A stretch of 64,000 nt of DNA from Bacteroidia bacterium (GTDB lineage Bacteria; Bacteroidota; Bacteroidia; NS11-12g; UBA9320), in the NCBI GenBank assembly GCA_018402155.1, contig JAGYJG010000001.1, positions 756,198 to 820,197 of the forward strand. The letters run 5' to 3'. The position numbers and the translations under genes were made by a program. The notes under the pieces are model-generated. The model was not told the origin of the DNA and ran no database searches. It was given only the letters and a program-made list of their open reading frames with translations. This document shows positions 44,043-49,669 of the stretch, one piece after another. Numbering within the stretch: position 1 is the first letter of the stretch; every line of letters begins with the position of its first letter.

Positions 44043-44115
44043 GATTCCTTAGCTCAGCTGGTAGAGCATTACACTTTTAATGTAGTGGTCCTGGGTTCGA
44101 GTCCCAGAGGGATCA
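44043..44115 (+). tRNA. tRNA-Lys (anticodon TTT), integration target
   Basis: 73 nt. Acceptor GATTCCT pairs with AGGGATC; discriminator A. The anticodon stem TTACA/TGTAG closes loop CTTTTAA with TTT in the middle. CCA is not encoded. Its last 16 nt (44100-44115) are part of a 58-bp direct repeat found again at 49612, marking it as the attachment site of the adjacent element. Confidence 0.96.
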
Positions 44116-44157
44116 CAATTCAGCCTTGACTTTCAATAAGTTAAGGCTTTTTTATTT
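44100..44157 (+). repeat. attL (58-bp direct repeat, left)
   Basis: Starts with the tRNA 3' end AGTCCCAGAGGGATCA and continues through a terminator hairpin to 44157. It matches 49612-49669 at 56 of 58 positions; the differences are C/A at 44121 and A/G at 44136. Both are outside the hairpin stem. Confidence 0.93.
44122..44153 (+). terminator. tRNA-Lys terminator (element-supplied copy)
   Basis: Stem AGCCTTGACTT (44122-44132) with AAGTTAAGGCT (44138-44148), one G-T pair, a 5-nt loop, then a T run. Duplicated at 49634-49665. Confidence 0.85.
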
Positions 44158-44161
44158 TATC

Positions 44162-44184
44162 GTTGTCGGTTTGGTTGTCGGTTT
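44162..44184 (+). repeat. Left 23-bp tandem dyad (candidate arm-type site)
   Basis: GTTGTCGGTTTG followed by GTTGTCGGTTT, 5 bp inside attL. The identical 23 bp occurs in the same orientation at 49477-49499 near the other end. Such end-specific repeats are typical arm-type binding sites of tyrosine integrases or excisionases. Confidence 0.8.
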
Positions 44185-44218
44185 AGTTTGTTTTACTCAA
44201 ATTATTACCTTTACCGCT

Positions 44219-44467
44219 ATGATCTCAAAAGACAAATTCAATTCTTTGACGTTGGATCACAAAGCGAATTTGATTTATCAAAAAAGAAATTTTATTTCAT
44301 TAAGGAAGTATTTTGATTTTGAAATTAGTTTGTATTCGTTCGGTGGATTATTTATCGAGGTATGGTTCTTCCCAGCAACAAATAACATACAACGAATTGA
44401 AACGGCTGCTTATAGTAACCTAGAATTGTACGTTAATCATTTAGATTTAGAAAATCTCATTTTTTAA
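44219..44467 (+). CDS. Small protein of unknown function at the element's left edge
   Basis: 82 residues from the ATG at 44219 (MISKDKFNSLTLDHKANLIYQKRNFI). The composition is normal for a real protein (FEISLYSFGGLFIEVWFFPATNNIQRIE), and I recall similar short proteins in Bacteroidota mobile elements, but no function. The longer open frame from 44126 would start inside the attL terminator and is rejected. It is the only plus-strand gene of the element. Confidence 0.6.
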   Translation: MISKDKFNSLTLDHKANLIYQKRNFISLRKYFDFEISLYSFGGLFIEVWFFPATNNIQRIETAAYSNLELYVNHLDLENLIF

Positions 44468-44528
44468 GTTGAAACTATACACGCGTGTCAGATAGTAATG
44501 AAGTCGTCAGAAGTTGTTTAAATAGCAT

Positions 44529-45005
44529 TTAAATCCCCTCAGAATAAATGTCGGTATTTGTTTCGGGCTGTTGCTGTAGTTGTATTCTGGTACGTGCAGA
44601 GGGGCTAAATCCAAACTCCTGTGATAACCTTAGAAAATCCTTTCTAAGTTTGTTTAGTTCGGTGTATAGTGGCTCTACTCTTATCGTCCCTTTGTCGTCC
44701 GTATAAGTTCTACTCTTTACGTTTTCTTTGAGCCATTCTATTTCTGCGTATACGTAGCAATACTCTTTAAATAGTGCTAAATCAATGAGCGAAATGTAAC
44801 CGTACATTTTTTGAGCTTGTAATAATTGAGCGTTCCAGACGTTTTTAGCTACTTCGGTTAAATCTTCGGGCGGTGTCGGTATTGTTTGGTGTACCCAGTC
44901 TAAAACGTTTACTTCCGCTATTTGATCACCGTGCTTCGACGGTCTGTAATAACCTCTTTGTTTTGCTATTGCCTTTGGTGGTGGTAAAATTCCTCTTCTT
45001 CCCAT
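44529..45005 (-). CDS. terS: Phage terminase small subunit, P27 family-like
   Basis: 158 residues. The N-terminal GRRGILPPPKAIAKQRGYYRPS and IPTPPEDLTEVAKNVWNAQLLQAQKMYGYISLIDLALFKEYCYVYAEIEWLKENV follow the P27-like small terminase pattern (P-rich start, W..L..L...G.L...D...L...C...). The C-terminal half has NKLRKDFLRLSQEFGFSPSARTRI, also typical. Small terminases choose DNA for packaging. With no large subunit or capsid genes nearby, its likely use is redirecting a helper phage. It has its own promoter. Confidence 0.82.
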   Translation of the reverse strand: MGRRGILPPPKAIAKQRGYYRPSKHGDQIAEVNVLDWVHQTIPTPPEDLTEVAKNVWNAQLLQAQKMYGYISLIDLALFKEYCYVYAEIEWLKENVKSRTYTDDKGTIRVEPLYTELNKLRKDFLRLSQEFGFSPSARTRIQLQQQPETNTDIYSEGI

Positions 45006-45018
45006 AGTTTTCAATTTT

Positions 45019-45060
45019 CAAAAGTAGACCATAGAAGAAAAAAGTGCAACGAACGTACGT
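45019..45060 (-). promoter_or_regulatory. terS promoter with ACGTACGT palindrome
   Basis: Minus strand: TACTTTTG (45026-45019) with TTG (45049-45047) 20 nt upstream, and the perfect palindrome ACGTACGT at 45053-45060 just beyond the -33. A similar palindrome (GTACGTAC, 47161-47168) lies upstream of the HTH gene. Position suggests an activator or shared operator. Confidence 0.6.
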
Positions 45061-45151
45061 CATTGTTTAAAAATAATCTTTTTACCCCCCTTAGGGTGTA
45101 TTTTCTATGTACGACTACATTCATAGTTTTAGTGGCTTGTATGCACGTTGT

Positions 45152-45430
45152 TCAATCTACAAGGCTACTATTACCAAACATCGGTTGGGGCTTTGTATAA
45201 GTAGTTTCTTTTATTTCGGCTTTCGGTTTCGGCAAAACAAATTCGCTCATTTTTAAAATCAATTCTATTGCCTTTGTCGGGTTTTCAGCTGCAACTCTAT
45301 CAAATAAGCTTTGTAGCTTTTCAATGTTGTTACTAAGTAGGTGTTCAAATTGTTGCCTTACTTCTTTTGTGGCGTGGTTGGGTGTTCCTTTCGGTCTTCC
45401 AGCGTTTGGTCTTTTACCTCCTTTAGTCAT
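45152..45430 (-). CDS. Small phage-type GRPxG protein
   Basis: 92 residues. The N-terminal KGGKRPNAGRPKGTPNHATKEVRQ is the GRPxG (AT-hook-like) start seen in DUF5681-like and small-terminase-associated phage proteins; the rest is helical (LLSNNIEKLQSLFDRVAAENPTKAIELILKMSEFVLPKP). It may bind DNA or be a second packaging-related protein. The 146-bp gap downstream, before terS, contains the terS promoter and a CCCTTAGGG palindrome at 45088-45096. Confidence 0.7.
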   Translation of the reverse strand: MTKGGKRPNAGRPKGTPNHATKEVRQQFEHLLSNNIEKLQSLFDRVAAENPTKAIELILKMSEFVLPKPKAEIKETTYTKPQPMFGNSSLVD

Positions 45431-45490
45431 TGATTTTTATTGATTGTTTATTGAACACTATTCACCCTATACTTAAATGATGAAAAGCGT

Positions 45491-46447
45491 TCACTTTTTA
45501 TAATTACTAAGAAAGAATTTTGCTTGCTTTATGGTCTCACAATTTAGCTGCAAAAGTTCCTTTTCTTTGATGTGTATTGCCTTTTTAATTTGATTTAGTG
45601 TTGATGTATCTATTTGCGAAGATAGTTCTTTAAATCGTCTTCTTTGCCTTCTGTATCGTTGTGAATTAGTTTTCATTAAGGTTGCAATTTCTTTCGGGTT
45701 CTTCCATTGGATAATAAGCTTTTTGTCGGGTGTGCTTAGTGGTTGCTTTTGAAGTTGTGGTTCAAAATAAACAAGGTCTTCCAGCGTGGAAAGTATTAGT
45801 TTAGACAACTTATAAACTTTTGTGTGGTCCAATAAGTCAGCAAGGCAATAAATACTGCAATCATTTACTTTTCGCATTACGTTAAAATGGATTTCGTACC
45901 TTAAAATTTCCTTTTTTAGTAGAATAGTATTTTGAAGTTGGCTTCGCTTATTGTAGCATTTTATTACATAATCACATAGTGTTGCTTCAATACCGACTTT
46001 AAACCTAAACTTGTTTTTCATTTCTGTAAATGGTACGGTTTTAAAGCAATACAAGCCATTTAAAAACGTGTCGGTTCGTATTGGCGGTGTTACATTAAAA
46101 CCAGCTTCTAAATTCAACAAAACGGCTTTAATAGGGTTTATTTCGTAAATCATACAAATTGAAGCTATACTGTTAAAAAGGTCCTTAAATTGAAAGTCTG
46201 AATAATTGAAACCTTCTGCAAAATACTTGTGCAAAGAAACTTGCATTTCTACTCTTTTAATGTTCCCGCTCTCGTTGTATCGGACCACAAAAACTAAACT
46301 ATTTCCCATTTCGAAAATCTCTTTTTGTATTTGTCCATTTCGGTCGGTTTTAAGACTTGCATTGTATTTGTTCGCATTAATAAACGAATAAAAGCTTTGC
46401 AAGTCAATAACCGCCTTTGTGATGTTGGTTTTTGTCCAGTCAATCAC
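45491..46447 (-). CDS. Replication-protein-like gene of the element
   Basis: 318 residues. The stretch LLNLEAGFNVTPPIRTDTFLNGLYCFKTVPF ... GIEATLCDYVIKCYNKRSQLQ ... KEILRYEIHFNVMRKVN ... LADLLD resembles phage/plasmid replication proteins of the gene II/X (Phage_CRI) type found on Bacteroidota elements. I do not see a clear HUH motif, so this is tentative. A very basic helix (QRYRRQRRRFKEL) near residue 270 suggests nucleic-acid binding. The start is GTG, or possibly a rarer codon upstream, as the frame is open to 46486 without ATG. Confidence 0.6.
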   Translation of the reverse strand: MIDWTKTNITKAVIDLQSFYSFINANKYNASLKTDRNGQIQKEIFEMGNSLVFVVRYNESGNIKRVEMQVSLHKYFAEGFNYSDFQFKDLFNSIASICMIYEINPIKAVLLNLEAGFNVTPPIRTDTFLNGLYCFKTVPFTEMKNKFRFKVGIEATLCDYVIKCYNKRSQLQNTILLKKEILRYEIHFNVMRKVNDCSIYCLADLLDHTKVYKLSKLILSTLEDLVYFEPQLQKQPLSTPDKKLIIQWKNPKEIATLMKTNSQRYRRQRRRFKELSSQIDTSTLNQIKKAIHIKEKELLQLNCETIKQAKFFLSNYKK

Positions 46448-46455
46448 TATCTTTG
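46425..46455 (+). promoter_or_regulatory. Antisense promoter at the start of the replication-like gene
   Basis: Plus strand: TTG (46425-46427), 20-nt spacer, TATCTTTG (46448-46455). The -7 box adjoins the GTG start codon (46447-46445) of the opposite-strand gene. It could drive the short antisense RNA listed next, or be a chance match in AT-rich DNA. Confidence 0.4.
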
Positions 46456-46459
46456 TACC

Positions 46460-46527
46460 AATTGTTTGAATGGAAGTTTCAAATAATTAAATTGCTTAAA
46501 AGAGTAACTCTTGTTGCTCTTTTTTTT
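46460..46527 (+). ncRNA. Candidate antisense RNA (about 65-70 nt) over the rep-like leader
   Basis: From the promoter just upstream, transcription would run for about 40 nt and end at a terminator: stem AGAGTAAC (46501-46508), loop TCTT, GTTGCTCT (46513-46520), then seven T. The RNA would be complementary to the leader of the replication-like gene, the usual arrangement of copy-number-controlling countertranscripts. Entirely a sequence prediction. Confidence 0.3.
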
Positions 46528-46828
46528 GTTCCATTGGTACGACAATTTCAACTTTATTTCCTGAAATTTTGCACTTACCAGTTGACACGTGAAGAACTCT
46601 TTTTTCAATCATTCTTTTTATTGGACTTGTAACGCAATTAATCGGAATGTGAAGTTCTTCTGAAATCATTCGCCTTGAATAAGGTTTTTTGACATCTTCT
46701 AAAAATTTGAGTATTTGCTTTTGGTATGTCAAATGTTTAAGAGATAGTATAAACATTTGAAAAGCAACTTTTGAATTTTCGTGAACGACGTGGTTCGGGT
46801 GTACGATGTTTCTGCCAGAATTAACCAT
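46496..46828 (-). CDS. Winged-helix-like regulator of the element
   Basis: 110 residues. The region LKHLTYQKQILKFLEDVKKPYSRRMISEELHIPINCVTSPIKRMIEKRVLHVS has the helix-helix-turn-helix-wing order of small DNA-binding regulators. The ATG at 46828 is preceded by a perfect Shine-Dalgarno AGGAGG (46841-46836) with 7-nt spacing, unusual in this genome. It overlaps the upstream HTH gene by 8 nt. Confidence 0.65.
   Translation of the reverse strand: MVNSGRNIVHPNHVVHENSKVAFQMFILSLKHLTYQKQILKFLEDVKKPYSRRMISEELHIPINCVTSPIKRMIEKRVLHVSTGKCKISGNKVEIVVPMEQKKEQQELLF
46501..46527 (+). terminator. Hairpin terminator, plus strand (possibly bidirectional)
   Basis: An 8-bp stem with one G-T pair and a 4-nt loop followed by TTTTTTT on the plus strand. 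On the minus strand the same stem is followed by TTT, so it may also weakly separate the regulator gene from the replication-like gene. It overlaps the last codons of the regulator gene. Confidence 0.5.
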
Positions 46829-47114
46829 TTGTAAACCTCCTTTCTTGAAGTGTTGCTTCCACTTCATTATGATCAAATAATACACGTCTTCCAATTCGGT
46901 AAGATTTTAGAACTCCTTTCTTTTCCAGTTTTAGAATGGTTGGAAAACTAATGTGAAATTCATCTTTTAGTTGTTGCCTTGTTAGCTTCTGCTTTGTAGG
47001 ACTTGTTTTGCTTTCGGCTCGTAGACTTTCTAAGGCTTCTGCAACACTCGAGCGAATAAGGTTTCTTAATTCCGTTCTCGTGGTTTGCTCTAATACTATG
47101 CTTGTTGTTTGCAT
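46821..47114 (-). CDS. Excisionase-like helix-turn-helix protein
   Basis: 97 residues. The C-terminal half LTRQQLKDEFHISFPTILKLEKKGVLKSYRIGRRVLFDHNEVEATL is the MerR-like HTH_17 fold of excisionases and AlpA-like activators; the first 45 residues look like a coiled coil. It probably controls element excision or its promoters. The -7-like TGCCTTTG (47126-47119) ends 4 nt before the ATG. Confidence 0.82.
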   Translation of the reverse strand: MQTTSIVLEQTTRTELRNLIRSSVAEALESLRAESKTSPTKQKLTRQQLKDEFHISFPTILKLEKKGVLKSYRIGRRVLFDHNEVEATLQERRFTNG

Positions 47115-47118
47115 AGTT

Positions 47119-47168
47119 CAAAGGCACTAAAAAAGTCAATGCAAGATAAACACGGTATTCGTACGTAC
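47119..47168 (-). promoter_or_regulatory. Promoter region of the HTH gene with palindrome
   Basis: TGCCTTTG (47126-47119, one mismatch) as -7 and the palindrome GTACGTAC at 47161-47168, overlapping the stop codon region of the upstream gene. The CGTACGT core is shared with the site at 45053-45060. Confidence 0.4.
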
Positions 47169-48082
47169 TAACTTGTTTTGTTTAACTTTGGCAAATTTAC
47201 AAGTGCTTCAAATAGGTTATCAATACCAGTTTCAAGGGTTGTTGTAATTACTGATTCCTTAAACGCTTTTTTCAAAGTTTCAAAACTTACTTCTTGTCCT
47301 TTGGTTTTTCCTTTTTGCGAAATAATTTTAAAATGCTTTTGGCAAAGTTTTGCGGTTTCTTCACCATTATAGTAATTTGTATTGAAGTCAAAATAAGCAA
47401 GGTCGAAAACTCCTTTAGTTGATAGTATGTACAATAAGGCTGCAAATCTTTCAGCCTTTATGTTTACCTCAATACGGTTGTCTTTAGTTGGTCCAGCTTC
47501 TTCACTTTTATTATAAGTCTTTATTTCACTTACCAGTTCAGCAAGTAAATAACCTTCATAAATGTGTTTAAAAAATAAACGGTCTTTTAAGCCTATTGAA
47601 AAGCTTTGTAAATCTTCAACTTTACTTTCTATACTTCGACCACCGTTGTAAGCATAAAAGCCTTTAAGCTTGTATTCTGTATAGATGTCGGGAAACTCTT
47701 TGGTGTTGATGTGCTTTTCAATCTTTTCAATAAACTTAGTTTTGGTAAGTTCGATGTCGTTTGTTTCTGCTACACGGCTATGAAATTGTTTTTTTAACCA
47801 TACACTTAGAAAGTCTTTATTCGTTTCATCTAAGCGGCTTATTTCGGCTTTTACAACTTCTAAACGGTCATTTCTATTCGTTGCACCTTCCAGCAAATTA
47901 AGTATTTCTTTACCTTTTCCAATTCCTCTAAATAAGCTTCGATGTTTTAAGTAGGTGGTCCAGTATTCAAGCTTTTCTTCTAAGGTTTCAAGCGTGCTTA
48001 TTTCTTTAACTTGCTTCTGAATTTGGGCTTCCTTTTCTGCTTCAATTCGAAGGCGTTCTTCTTTATTCTTATACACCTCCAT
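47168..48082 (-). CDS. Element protein of unknown function
   Basis: 304 residues from the ATG at 48082. The first 35 residues are a charged coiled coil (EVYKNKEERLRIEAEKEAQ); the middle is helical and the C-terminal part has RFAALLYILSTKGVFDLAYFDFNTNYYNGEETAKLCQKHFKI, which looks like a conserved core I cannot assign. It begins 1 bp after the integrase stop, so it is likely made with it. Possible roles are excision, replication or phage interference, none supported by motif. Confidence 0.75.
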   Translation of the reverse strand: MEVYKNKEERLRIEAEKEAQIQKQVKEISTLETLEEKLEYWTTYLKHRSLFRGIGKGKEILNLLEGATNRNDRLEVVKAEISRLDETNKDFLSVWLKKQFHSRVAETNDIELTKTKFIEKIEKHINTKEFPDIYTEYKLKGFYAYNGGRSIESKVEDLQSFSIGLKDRLFFKHIYEGYLLAELVSEIKTYNKSEEAGPTKDNRIEVNIKAERFAALLYILSTKGVFDLAYFDFNTNYYNGEETAKLCQKHFKIISQKGKTKGQEVSFETLKKAFKESVITTTLETGIDNLFEALVNLPKLNKTS

Positions 48083-48083
48083 A

Positions 48084-49436
48084 CTAAGCAAGCTTTAAAT
48101 GTTGTTTTGCAGCTCTTTTTTCTTCTTCCAGCTTGTAGTAATGTTTCGCAATTGTTTTGGCGTGTTCATTCGCGTCTAAAACAACGTAATTCTTAAAGTC
48201 TTTAACAGTAGAATGTCCAGTAATTGCCATAATTGAAAGAATAGGAAAGCCTTGTTTGTAGTGATTTGTTGCCCAGCTTCTTCTTCCCGTATGGCTTGAA
48301 ATCAGTTCGTATTTAGGTTTTTCAATTCTCAATTTTAAACCGCCTTTTGTTTGGTTGTAAGTACATAGATTATCTATTCCAGCCAGTTGGCAAACTTCTT
48401 TTATGTACTCATTAAATTTTTGATCGGTTATCTTAGGAAGATTAAATTCATAATTTTTCAGAATTTCAATAACATTTGAATGAAGTGGAACATCAACTTC
48501 CTTGTTAGTCTTTTGCGTTGTTATTCGAATGAAATCTTTTTTAATTTCGATTGTGGAATTGTCTTCATTCACATTAAATGATGTCGTAAAAATGTGGTCC
48601 TTATTTATTCGCTTTAAGTCTGAAACTCTTAAACCAGTTCTGCAAGCTATTACAAATAAATCTTTAACCTTAGCAAGCCTTTCTTCAAAACATTCAAATT
48701 CATACAAAGCTTGTATTTCTTCTTCATTTAAATAAACGTGAAAAGTTTGTTCCTGAACTTTTTTAAATAATTTGTTTTTGTGGCTTTGATTATTTGTTAT
48801 TCCTTTTTCATTTGCAAGGTTCATTATTGTTTTGATGTCCTTAATAATTCGCCCTTTTGTATTAGTACTGAAATTTTCTTTGTTTAAAAAATCAATAAAT
48901 TCATTATACCAAACAATTGAAATCACCTCAAAATCGACGTTAAATGAACGCTCTTTTTCGAATTGACGTAATAGGCTGCTTAGTCTTGAATAGTGGTTTA
49001 TAATGCTTCTTTTCGGGTTCTTTCCTTCATTAATAAGCCTTTGTTCTTCTAGCCTAATCTTATAGTCAATTAACTCGTAGAAATTATACGTTTTTTCTTC
49101 TTTTTGTGGTTCGTTGGCTTTATCAATGGTATGTATGATGTAGTCTTTAAATTGCTTTGCGTTGGGTGTACGGTTGTATTCATTTTGATACTTATTAAAA
49201 GCGTTTTCAATGTCACTTTTTTGGTTACCTAATTGAGTGTTAAACTCTAAACTGTTTTCATAGGTCTTTTTTGCTTTTTGGTTGTTTGCGTTCCAAAATT
49301 TTGGGTGTATAGTCTTTCCAGTAGGGTGAACTATTTTTTGATTAGACCAACGAATTACCAAATTAATCGGTGTTGTGTTTTGTTCAGAAGCCTTTAAACC
49401 TTTTTGTGGTTGTCGAAGATTGAAATTGATTTTCAT
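48084..49436 (-). CDS. Tyrosine recombinase (integrase)
   Basis: 450 residues in the usual Bacteroidota order: arm-binding N-domain (about 1-90), SAM-like core-binding domain (about 115-225) and catalytic domain. Catalytic residues visible are Arg270 (TGLRVSDL), His382 and Arg385 (HTGRR), His408 (TGHS) and Tyr417 (FKNY). It should integrate the element at tRNA-Lys. The gene sits at the end far from the intact tRNA, near attR, and its promoter region overlaps a tandem dyad. Confidence 0.95.
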   Translation of the reverse strand: MKINFNLRQPQKGLKASEQNTTPINLVIRWSNQKIVHPTGKTIHPKFWNANNQKAKKTYENSLEFNTQLGNQKSDIENAFNKYQNEYNRTPNAKQFKDYIIHTIDKANEPQKEEKTYNFYELIDYKIRLEEQRLINEGKNPKRSIINHYSRLSSLLRQFEKERSFNVDFEVISIVWYNEFIDFLNKENFSTNTKGRIIKDIKTIMNLANEKGITNNQSHKNKLFKKVQEQTFHVYLNEEEIQALYEFECFEERLAKVKDLFVIACRTGLRVSDLKRINKDHIFTTSFNVNEDNSTIEIKKDFIRITTQKTNKEVDVPLHSNVIEILKNYEFNLPKITDQKFNEYIKEVCQLAGIDNLCTYNQTKGGLKLRIEKPKYELISSHTGRRSWATNHYKQGFPILSIMAITGHSTVKDFKNYVVLDANEHAKTIAKHYYKLEEEKRAAKQHLKLA

Positions 49437-49455
49437 TATAATTAAATTGCTTCTA

Positions 49456-49463
49456 CAAATTTA
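49456..49463 (-). promoter_or_regulatory. -7 box of the integrase gene
   Basis: TAAATTTG on the minus strand (49463 to 49456) is an exact consensus, 19 nt before the ATG. The -33 position falls inside the tandem dyad at 49477-49499, so protein bound there would compete with RNA polymerase. Confidence 0.55.
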
Positions 49464-49476
49464 CTTTTAATTTTCG

Positions 49477-49499
49477 GTTGTCGGTTTGGTTGTCGGTTT
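49477..49499 (+). repeat. Right 23-bp tandem dyad (candidate arm-type site)
   Basis: Same 23 bp and same orientation as 44162-44184. It lies 41 bp upstream of the integrase start and 112 bp before attR. Confidence 0.8.
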
Positions 49500-49611
49500 T
49501 TCTTTCCTTTATTTTTTCACAATTTGTCTTATTTTGTTTTATAGTATTAGTTTTTAAGTAGTTATGACCTATTTTAAAGCAAAGTAAAAGTTCAATAAAA
49601 CAATAAAATGC

Positions 49612-49669
49612 AGTCCCAGAGGGATCACAATTAAGCCTTGACTTTCAGTAAGTTAAGGCTTTTTTATTT
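49612..49669 (+). repeat. attR (58-bp direct repeat, right), with terminator copy
   Basis: The partial tRNA end plus terminator hairpin (stem 49634-49660, T run to 49665). This copy is presumably the chromosomal original, displaced from the tRNA by integration. Confidence 0.93.

Follow-up and report, generated by a model that had tools for sequence, protein, structure and literature searches.

The 64,000-nucleotide stretch of Bacteroidia bacterium DNA analysed here (contig JAGYJG010000001.1; the window) carries at a tRNA-Lys gene a 5.5-kb element, which we take, with a probability of about 0.78, to be a small integrated phage satellite that would excise, replicate by rolling circle and enter the capsids of a helper phage by means of its own small terminase (TerS) and cohesive-end site (cos). 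This reading has been reached because the element combines intact attachment (att) repeats, arm sites, an integrase, a TerS, a cos-like site shared with phages and a replication protein (Rep) of telling fold, and because one of its relatives is circular. As judged from the sequence, it is probably a phage satellite by function, while its gene content places it outside the phage-inducible chromosomal islands (PICIs), the phage-inducible chromosomal minimalist islands (PICMIs) and the P4-like satellites. In the element we have a concrete example of a Bacteroidota satellite for which helper type and cohesive end can be predicted, from a phylum that is dominant in seas, lakes and guts. It also offers a starting point for finding members of a family whose Rep occurs in about 10% of the sampled Bacteroidia genomes, and a putative function for proteins listed as unknown by PHROGs and Pfam (DUF5681-like).

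Borders and Gene Content

An initial annotation of the window had described 58-bp direct repeats around 5.5 kb at the tRNA-Lys gene, and these have been confirmed, the two copies being 97% identical and 5,512 bp apart, which is the length of the element. The main genes are all encoded on the minus strand, orf82 on the plus strand; the features, in window positions, are as follows, of which orf82, the arm-type repeats and the cos-like site are additions to the initial annotation.

44043-44116, plus strand: tRNA-Lys(ttt), the attachment gene, left intact (ARAGORN); the same tRNA-Lys occurs in congeners, some of them without the element
44100-44157, no strand: attL, 58-bp direct repeat made up of the last 17 nt of the tRNA (3' end) and a terminator-like tail
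44163-44184, no strand: left arm-type repeats TTGTCGGTTTGGTTGTCGGTTT; the same unit stands at the attP core of the relative L242 and after the tRNA-Lys of the congener G030
44219-44467, plus strand: orf82, conserved gene with a homologue behind the same tRNA-Lys in G030
44529-45005, minus strand: TerS, Terminase_4/P27-family small terminase (PF05119, 52.9 bits; PHROG 83)
45036-45092, minus strand: predicted cos-like site, with the AGGGGGGT motif, a spacer, the predicted 10-nt cohesive end CGTTCGTTGC (45046-45055) and a T-run
45152-45430, minus strand: GRPxG protein (DUF5681-like, PHROG 15261), very probably a second small terminase; phage homologues lie directly 5' of the large terminase gene
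45491-46447, minus strand: Rep, modelled with a rolling-circle initiator fold (Rep_trans/G2P type) that matches RepD/RepDE in the PDB
about 46496-46831, minus strand: helix-turn-helix (HTH) protein, probable regulator (PHROG 1123, 6.4e-6), with a relative in L106; its start codon is uncertain, with alternative starts upstream
46821-47114, minus strand: Xis-like protein of the HTH_17/excisionase family, from weak profile matches and a position conserved in the family
47168-48082, minus strand: orf304, the variable gene between int and xis, at a position where 2 of 29 relatives have an RteC-like gene
48084-49436, minus strand: tyrosine integrase with arm-binding (PF17293), SAM-like (PF13102) and catalytic (PF00589, 52.2 bits) domains and RHR-type motifs
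49478-49499, no strand: right arm-type repeats TTGTCGGTTTGGTTGTCGGTTT, inside the right end
49612-49669, no strand: attR, 58-bp repeat with a remnant of the 17-nt tRNA end

The tyrosine integrase of the initial annotation is borne out by its three Pfam matches. The gene that had been called excisionase-like keeps this name on its conserved position, together with matches to TIGR01764 (1.1e-4) and PF12728 (1.7e-4) that are both weak and below cut-off. Structural phage genes, which had been reported as lacking, have indeed not been detected in the element by profile searches with Pfam, PHROGs and NCBIfam, and the same searches gave no function for orf304 and orf82. What has been found is thus an integrated element with att sites and an integrase, devoid of recognisable structural genes and equipped for packaging with a TerS and a cos-like site, which is the composition of a satellite. 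The tRNA-Lys region has been searched in 18 other genomes of the genus; among the regions read, L260, L263, L264 and L268 show plain downstream sequence. In G030 the tRNA-Lys is followed by these arm repeats and by a homologue of orf82, up to a contig end that interrupts the region, and searches of this draft genome did not recover the remaining element genes.

The P27-type Small Terminase and Its Phage Relatives

The assignment of TerS to the P27 type has been accepted by the profile search (PF05119, 52.9 bits against a cut-off of 24.7; PHROG 83, 1.2e-17), with the NCBIfam equivalog TIGR01558 narrowly missed (44.3 versus 45.6 bits). Relatives occur in 50 IMG/VR loci (L002-L051), where the full-length ones are mostly 61-80% identical and one is 50% identical, and the phages that carry them are cos phages of roughly 29-30 kb. 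Nearly all of these loci with enough flank show the order TerS, large terminase (TerL, 532 aa), portal, protease and major capsid protein (MCP), as assigned by size pattern. It had been considered at the outset that homologues of the element might exist only as parts of larger phages; none of Int, Xis, Rep and the other element proteins is encoded in the phage stretches read around the TerS homologues.

The closest TerS belongs to the phage L002, and the comparison of the two terS genes gives a Ka of 0.13 at saturated synonymous sites. Protein identity to L002 is 75% at residues 1-52 and reaches 90% at residues 111-158. In phage lambda, TerS binds TerL by its C-terminus (PMC9026076), and the C-terminal peak of identity would be as expected for a protein that engages the motor of a helper. 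A scan of the genome_contigs set with TerS gave no relatives, and sequence searches of TerS, Rep and the GRPxG protein against the PDB returned nothing meaningful.

Two observations on these genes stand apart. Several P27-type phages have an open reading frame (ORF) of ~242 aa exactly between cos and terS (L002:3543-4271, L005:39-767, L009:40-768), absent in others, which may encode a homing endonuclease targeting the packaging region. Elsewhere in the host genome, outside the window (G000:C1:9360-9431, L094), a 72-bp fragment matches the terS 3' end at 90% identity (SARTRIQLQQQPETNTDVYSEGI), and a GRPxG-like remnant (GTKEGKPTGRPKLAHN) lies ~400 bp from it on the opposite strand; the two fragments are probably the relic of another such element.

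A Shared cos-like Site

Many of the phage contigs with TerS start 29-65 nt upstream of terS, and in nearly full-length ones the two ends abut with about 10 nt missing. The 28.6-kb contig G488 ends with ...GGGAACTA and starts with CACTTTATT, and L016, which is continuous at this place, reads GGGAACTA-CGCATGGCAT-CACTTTATT; the same end pattern has been found for G492 (29.8 kb) against G494. Such contig ends are the signature of linear virion DNA with cohesive ends of ~10 nt. Upstream of its own terS, the element contains AAGGGGGGT, including the AGGGGGGT motif at 35 nt from the predicted cohesive end, the corresponding distance in the phages being 35-36. The core that follows the spacer is TACGTTCGTTGCACTTTTTT in the element and TACGTTCGTGGCACTTTTTT in L002, with 19 of 20 bases identical. 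By chance, 0.01 occurrences of the two-part motif are expected in the window, and 0.03 of the core at up to 3 mismatches. The exact cos core has been found in only two of 2.9 million viral contigs, L002 and L258; the match in L258 lies inside a coding frame of unrelated DNA and has been rejected as chance. Since the synonymous sites of terS are saturated at a Ka of 0.13, the shared cos is more likely to have been kept by selection than copied recently, and most likely both the TerS protein and the short noncoding site have been maintained in this way.

The GRPxG Protein as a Probable Second Small Terminase

The GRPxG protein had been noted at first only by its motif. Its presence stands, and it is itself very probably a small terminase, unrelated to the P27 TerS, because its phage homologues adjoin TerL. 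With tblastn against phages, a homologue appeared in three freshwater-spring phage records, and in the two that were opened the ORF in question stands immediately before TerL (PHROG 3717, 3.5e-65) and overlaps it. The IMG/VR scan yielded 80 GRPxG loci (L155-L234), and in 61 of the 65 with a called ORF TerL lies at most 3 genes away, nearly always adjacent; for the homologue in L157, identity in the aligned portion amounts to 48%. A single-sequence scan of viral contigs gave no relatives. The AlphaFold model consists of three helices at middling confidence (pLDDT 73, pTM 0.45). The element would, very probably, carry two unrelated small terminases, and the GRPxG/DUF5681-like proteins beside TerL, whose families PHROGs lists as unknown, look like a small-terminase class that has escaped annotation.

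A Predicted Rolling-Circle Initiator

Rep (318 aa) has been modelled with AlphaFold on 23 aligned sequences at a pLDDT of 91.2, and the only convincing PDB matches to the model are RepD/RepDE and a Geobacillus initiator (Z 13.1, 12.1 and 11.3), the next unrelated row being at Z 6.6. The top match aligns 242 residues at a root-mean-square deviation of 4.2 (Foldseek 2.3e-6), and Tyr, Lys, Arg and Glu columns are invariant in the Rep alignment. Among viral models the inovirus G2P is best, in line with a weak Phage_CRI match of a relative. On the strength of the model, Rep is a predicted rolling-circle initiator with the RepD/RepDE fold. The initial annotation had spoken of a replication-like gene in the sense of a PICI, of which a role in replication is kept as the likely one and the primase/rep module has to be given up; profile searches of the element gave no match to a primase.

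An Element Family in Bacteroidota

Matches to the Rep profile have been obtained in 40 of 395 Bacteroidia genomes (~10%), with hosts that include Runella, Mucilaginibacter, Emticicia, Dyadobacter, Tenacibaculum, Flammeovirga and Pedobacter. In the recurrent neighbourhood Int, a variable gene, Xis and Rep come in succession, and in many cases cargo follows, together with a tRNA or tmRNA gene. This Int-X-Xis-Rep set forms the common core of an element family spread over the Bacteroidota. Direct repeats give sizes of about 5-9 kb, among them 7.1 kb at tRNA-Phe, 5.7 kb at tmRNA, 5.1 kb at Cys, 6.0 kb at Asp, 7.8-8.7 kb at Met, and others. It had been asked whether other copies carry structural genes: none of the profiled phage head genes has been found in backbone copies elsewhere, apart from a single match resembling TerL, which lies downstream of Rep in L252. 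Cargo in relatives includes parts of type I and III restriction-modification systems, mad5, a KAP NTPase and a YhcG nuclease, though the borders are not fixed at every locus and some of this defence cargo may lie outside the elements.

Particularly informative is L242 (RXKB01000048.1), a contig of 4,601 bp in which a 53-bp sequence is repeated at both ends, closing it to a circle of ~4.5 kb; its tRNA-Asp-like core is flanked by the same arm repeats TTGTCGGTTTGGTTGTCGGTTT as in the window element. The terminal repeat and the arm-flanked core identify it as the excised form with joined attP. The contig has been binned as Candidatus Dependentiae although it is a member of a Bacteroidota element family, and that bin is probably contaminated. 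A further relative, L090, is the only one from the scan of viral contigs with the Rep alignment.

Two features of the family deserve separate mention. The gene between int and xis differs in nearly every member, with 180-576 aa (e.g., L058:9794-11524, L059:10536-11207). RteC matches in 2 of 29 such genes are a hint only, the others gave no function, and this may be a place where defence or regulatory genes collect. A Tenacibaculum metagenome-assembled genome (L253:5745-13075) has two Int-Xis-Rep modules in succession, perhaps a tandem array of elements.

The initial proposal of a Bacteroidota satellite with its own TerS, possibly from an undescribed family, finds support in these data. Literature searches returned no phage satellite from Bacteroidota, and no description of the element family in a comparison whose scope ended short of the gene content of marine virion-encapsidated integrative mobile elements (VEIMEs). 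A wider proposal, which we hold tentatively and at somewhat less than even odds, would see here minimal rolling-circle satellites (Int-X-Xis-Rep, often with GRPxG) that form an undescribed family spread across Bacteroidota, the GRPxG/DUF5681-like proteins as an unrecognised small-terminase class, and two TerS that let one 5.5-kb satellite use two helper classes, namely a cos phage by way of P27 TerS and cos, and a phage whose own TerS is of the GRPxG class. The element would further illustrate how compact a satellite with a packaging specificity of its own may become, and in what way such elements may hedge between helpers.

Proposed Life Cycle and Alternative Explanations

In the cycle that we propose, entry of a helper, probably a cos siphophage of roughly 29-30 kb of the L002-L051 type, would act as the trigger, whereupon the integrase and the putative Xis would excise the element as a circle, acting at the arm repeats and at the core in tRNA-Lys. 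Rep would amplify the circle, probably yielding multimers in the infected cell; the P27-type TerS would bind its own cos-like site and recruit the large terminase of the helper, which would cut the 10-nt cohesive end and load satellite DNA into helper heads, where about five units (27.6 kb) would come close to the capacity of 28.6-29.9 kb. The GRPxG protein, very probably a small terminase from another class of phages, may be the original packaging adaptor of the family, serving a second helper class, or an interference protein. Several results weigh against a satellite. Scans of viral contigs with the Rep and Int of the element gave no relatives and hence no excised or packaged form, and no capsid-size gene has been recognised. 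No second genome was found to contain the complete element, and the congener G030 has its left end only. The co-resident helper prophage that the initial annotation suggested looking for did not turn up, the P27-type TerL being undetected in the host genome in a search that had no positive control and in which a virulent helper would not be present. Finally, a recognisable GRPxG TerS occurs in only about 11 of ~57 family loci and the P27 TerS in the window element only, so that for the family as a whole packaging cannot be demonstrated to be ancestral.

The scarcity of recognised TerS carriers is also what a mobilisable integrative element would lead one to expect, in which the Rep-like protein would act as a relaxase of the MOBT type (with the Rep_trans fold, as in NicK of ICEBs1), transfer would proceed by conjugation with a helper integrative and conjugative element, and the TerS genes would be cargo or defence. 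MOBT relaxases have the same fold as Rep_trans initiators, and the conjugative explanation therefore stays alive, the fold not discriminating between the two; the two RteC matches among mid genes, RteC being an excision regulator of Bacteroides conjugative elements, point the same way. Such an origin nevertheless appears unlikely given a small terminase under purifying selection with a matching cos site and a second terminase homologue beside it, and no coupling or second Mob protein has been recognised in the element. Conversely, the terminase and cos could be the whole purpose of a defence island, sabotaging the packaging of P27-type phages as TerS and decoy cos while the element itself is never packaged. 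Relatives do carry defence cargo, and TerS with cos could titrate TerL, but integrase, Xis, arm sites and replication initiator have all been kept, a family member circularises, and known satellites combine interference with hitchhiking, which makes this explanation quite improbable. Least credible of all is a prophage with a P27-type terminase that has decayed to the present element. The joint presence of terS and cos, as in phages, and the 72-bp terS relic elsewhere in the host genome would conform to it, but no main frame is broken, the att repeats and the integrase are intact, Rep recurs in the sampled Bacteroidia genomes mostly with Int and Xis and almost without profiled head genes, L242 is a circle, and the phages with TerS homologues lack the other element genes.

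Comparison With Known Satellites

The phage-satellite reading has its closest functional parallels in the PICIs, and the label PICI-type given initially has proven right for how the element is predicted to work and wrong for membership, which the regulator and primase modules decide. Staphylococcus aureus pathogenicity islands (SaPIs) and other Gram-positive PICIs (SaPI1, SaPIbov5, EfCIV583) likewise have integrase and Xis and no structural genes, and are packaged by a helper; pac SaPIs bring their own TerS, as does the window element. SaPIbov4/5 carry a helper-like cos site, SaPIbov5 being the precedent for such a cos in a satellite (PMC5052747). These islands are larger, at about 14 kb compared with 5.5 kb for the window element in its Bacteroidota host. 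They also have a master repressor of the Stl type or two divergent regulators (stl/str, or alpA), as well as a primase/rep-ori module, neither of which has been recognised in the window element. The latter is in turn unlike them in its P27 TerS with own cos and a second TerS-like protein. In Gram-negative cos-rpp PICIs (EcCICFT073 type), a packaging gene lies beside a cos that copies the helper cosN, and Rpp rides on the helper TerS (PMC9026076); the window element has a packaging gene beside a helper-like cos as well, but a full TerS with conserved C-terminus instead of Rpp.

PICMIs of Vibrionaceae are 6.1 kb in size, integrate at fis, replicate by rolling circle and are packaged as headful-like concatemers, without terS or an identified cos, and they constitute the tested precedent for a 6-kb rolling-circle satellite packed in this form (PMC10803314). 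Very small size, rolling-circle replication (predicted for our element) and a defence gene, within the satellite in PICMIs and within the family here, are common to both, whereas the tRNA-Lys site, terS, cos and the Rep_trans-fold initiator set the window element apart. For P4-like satellites, no match to psu, delta, sid or the alpha primase has been obtained with Pfam, PHROGs and NCBIfam. The P27-type cos phages (L002-L051), the probable helper type, have terS and the cos site in common with the element and are by size pattern full phages with TerL, portal, protease and MCP, without such an integrase, Xis or Rep in the stretches read. Marine VEIMEs and tycheposons reportedly occur in ocean virions as concatemers of small integrative elements, and the element family may overlap with the VEIMEs.

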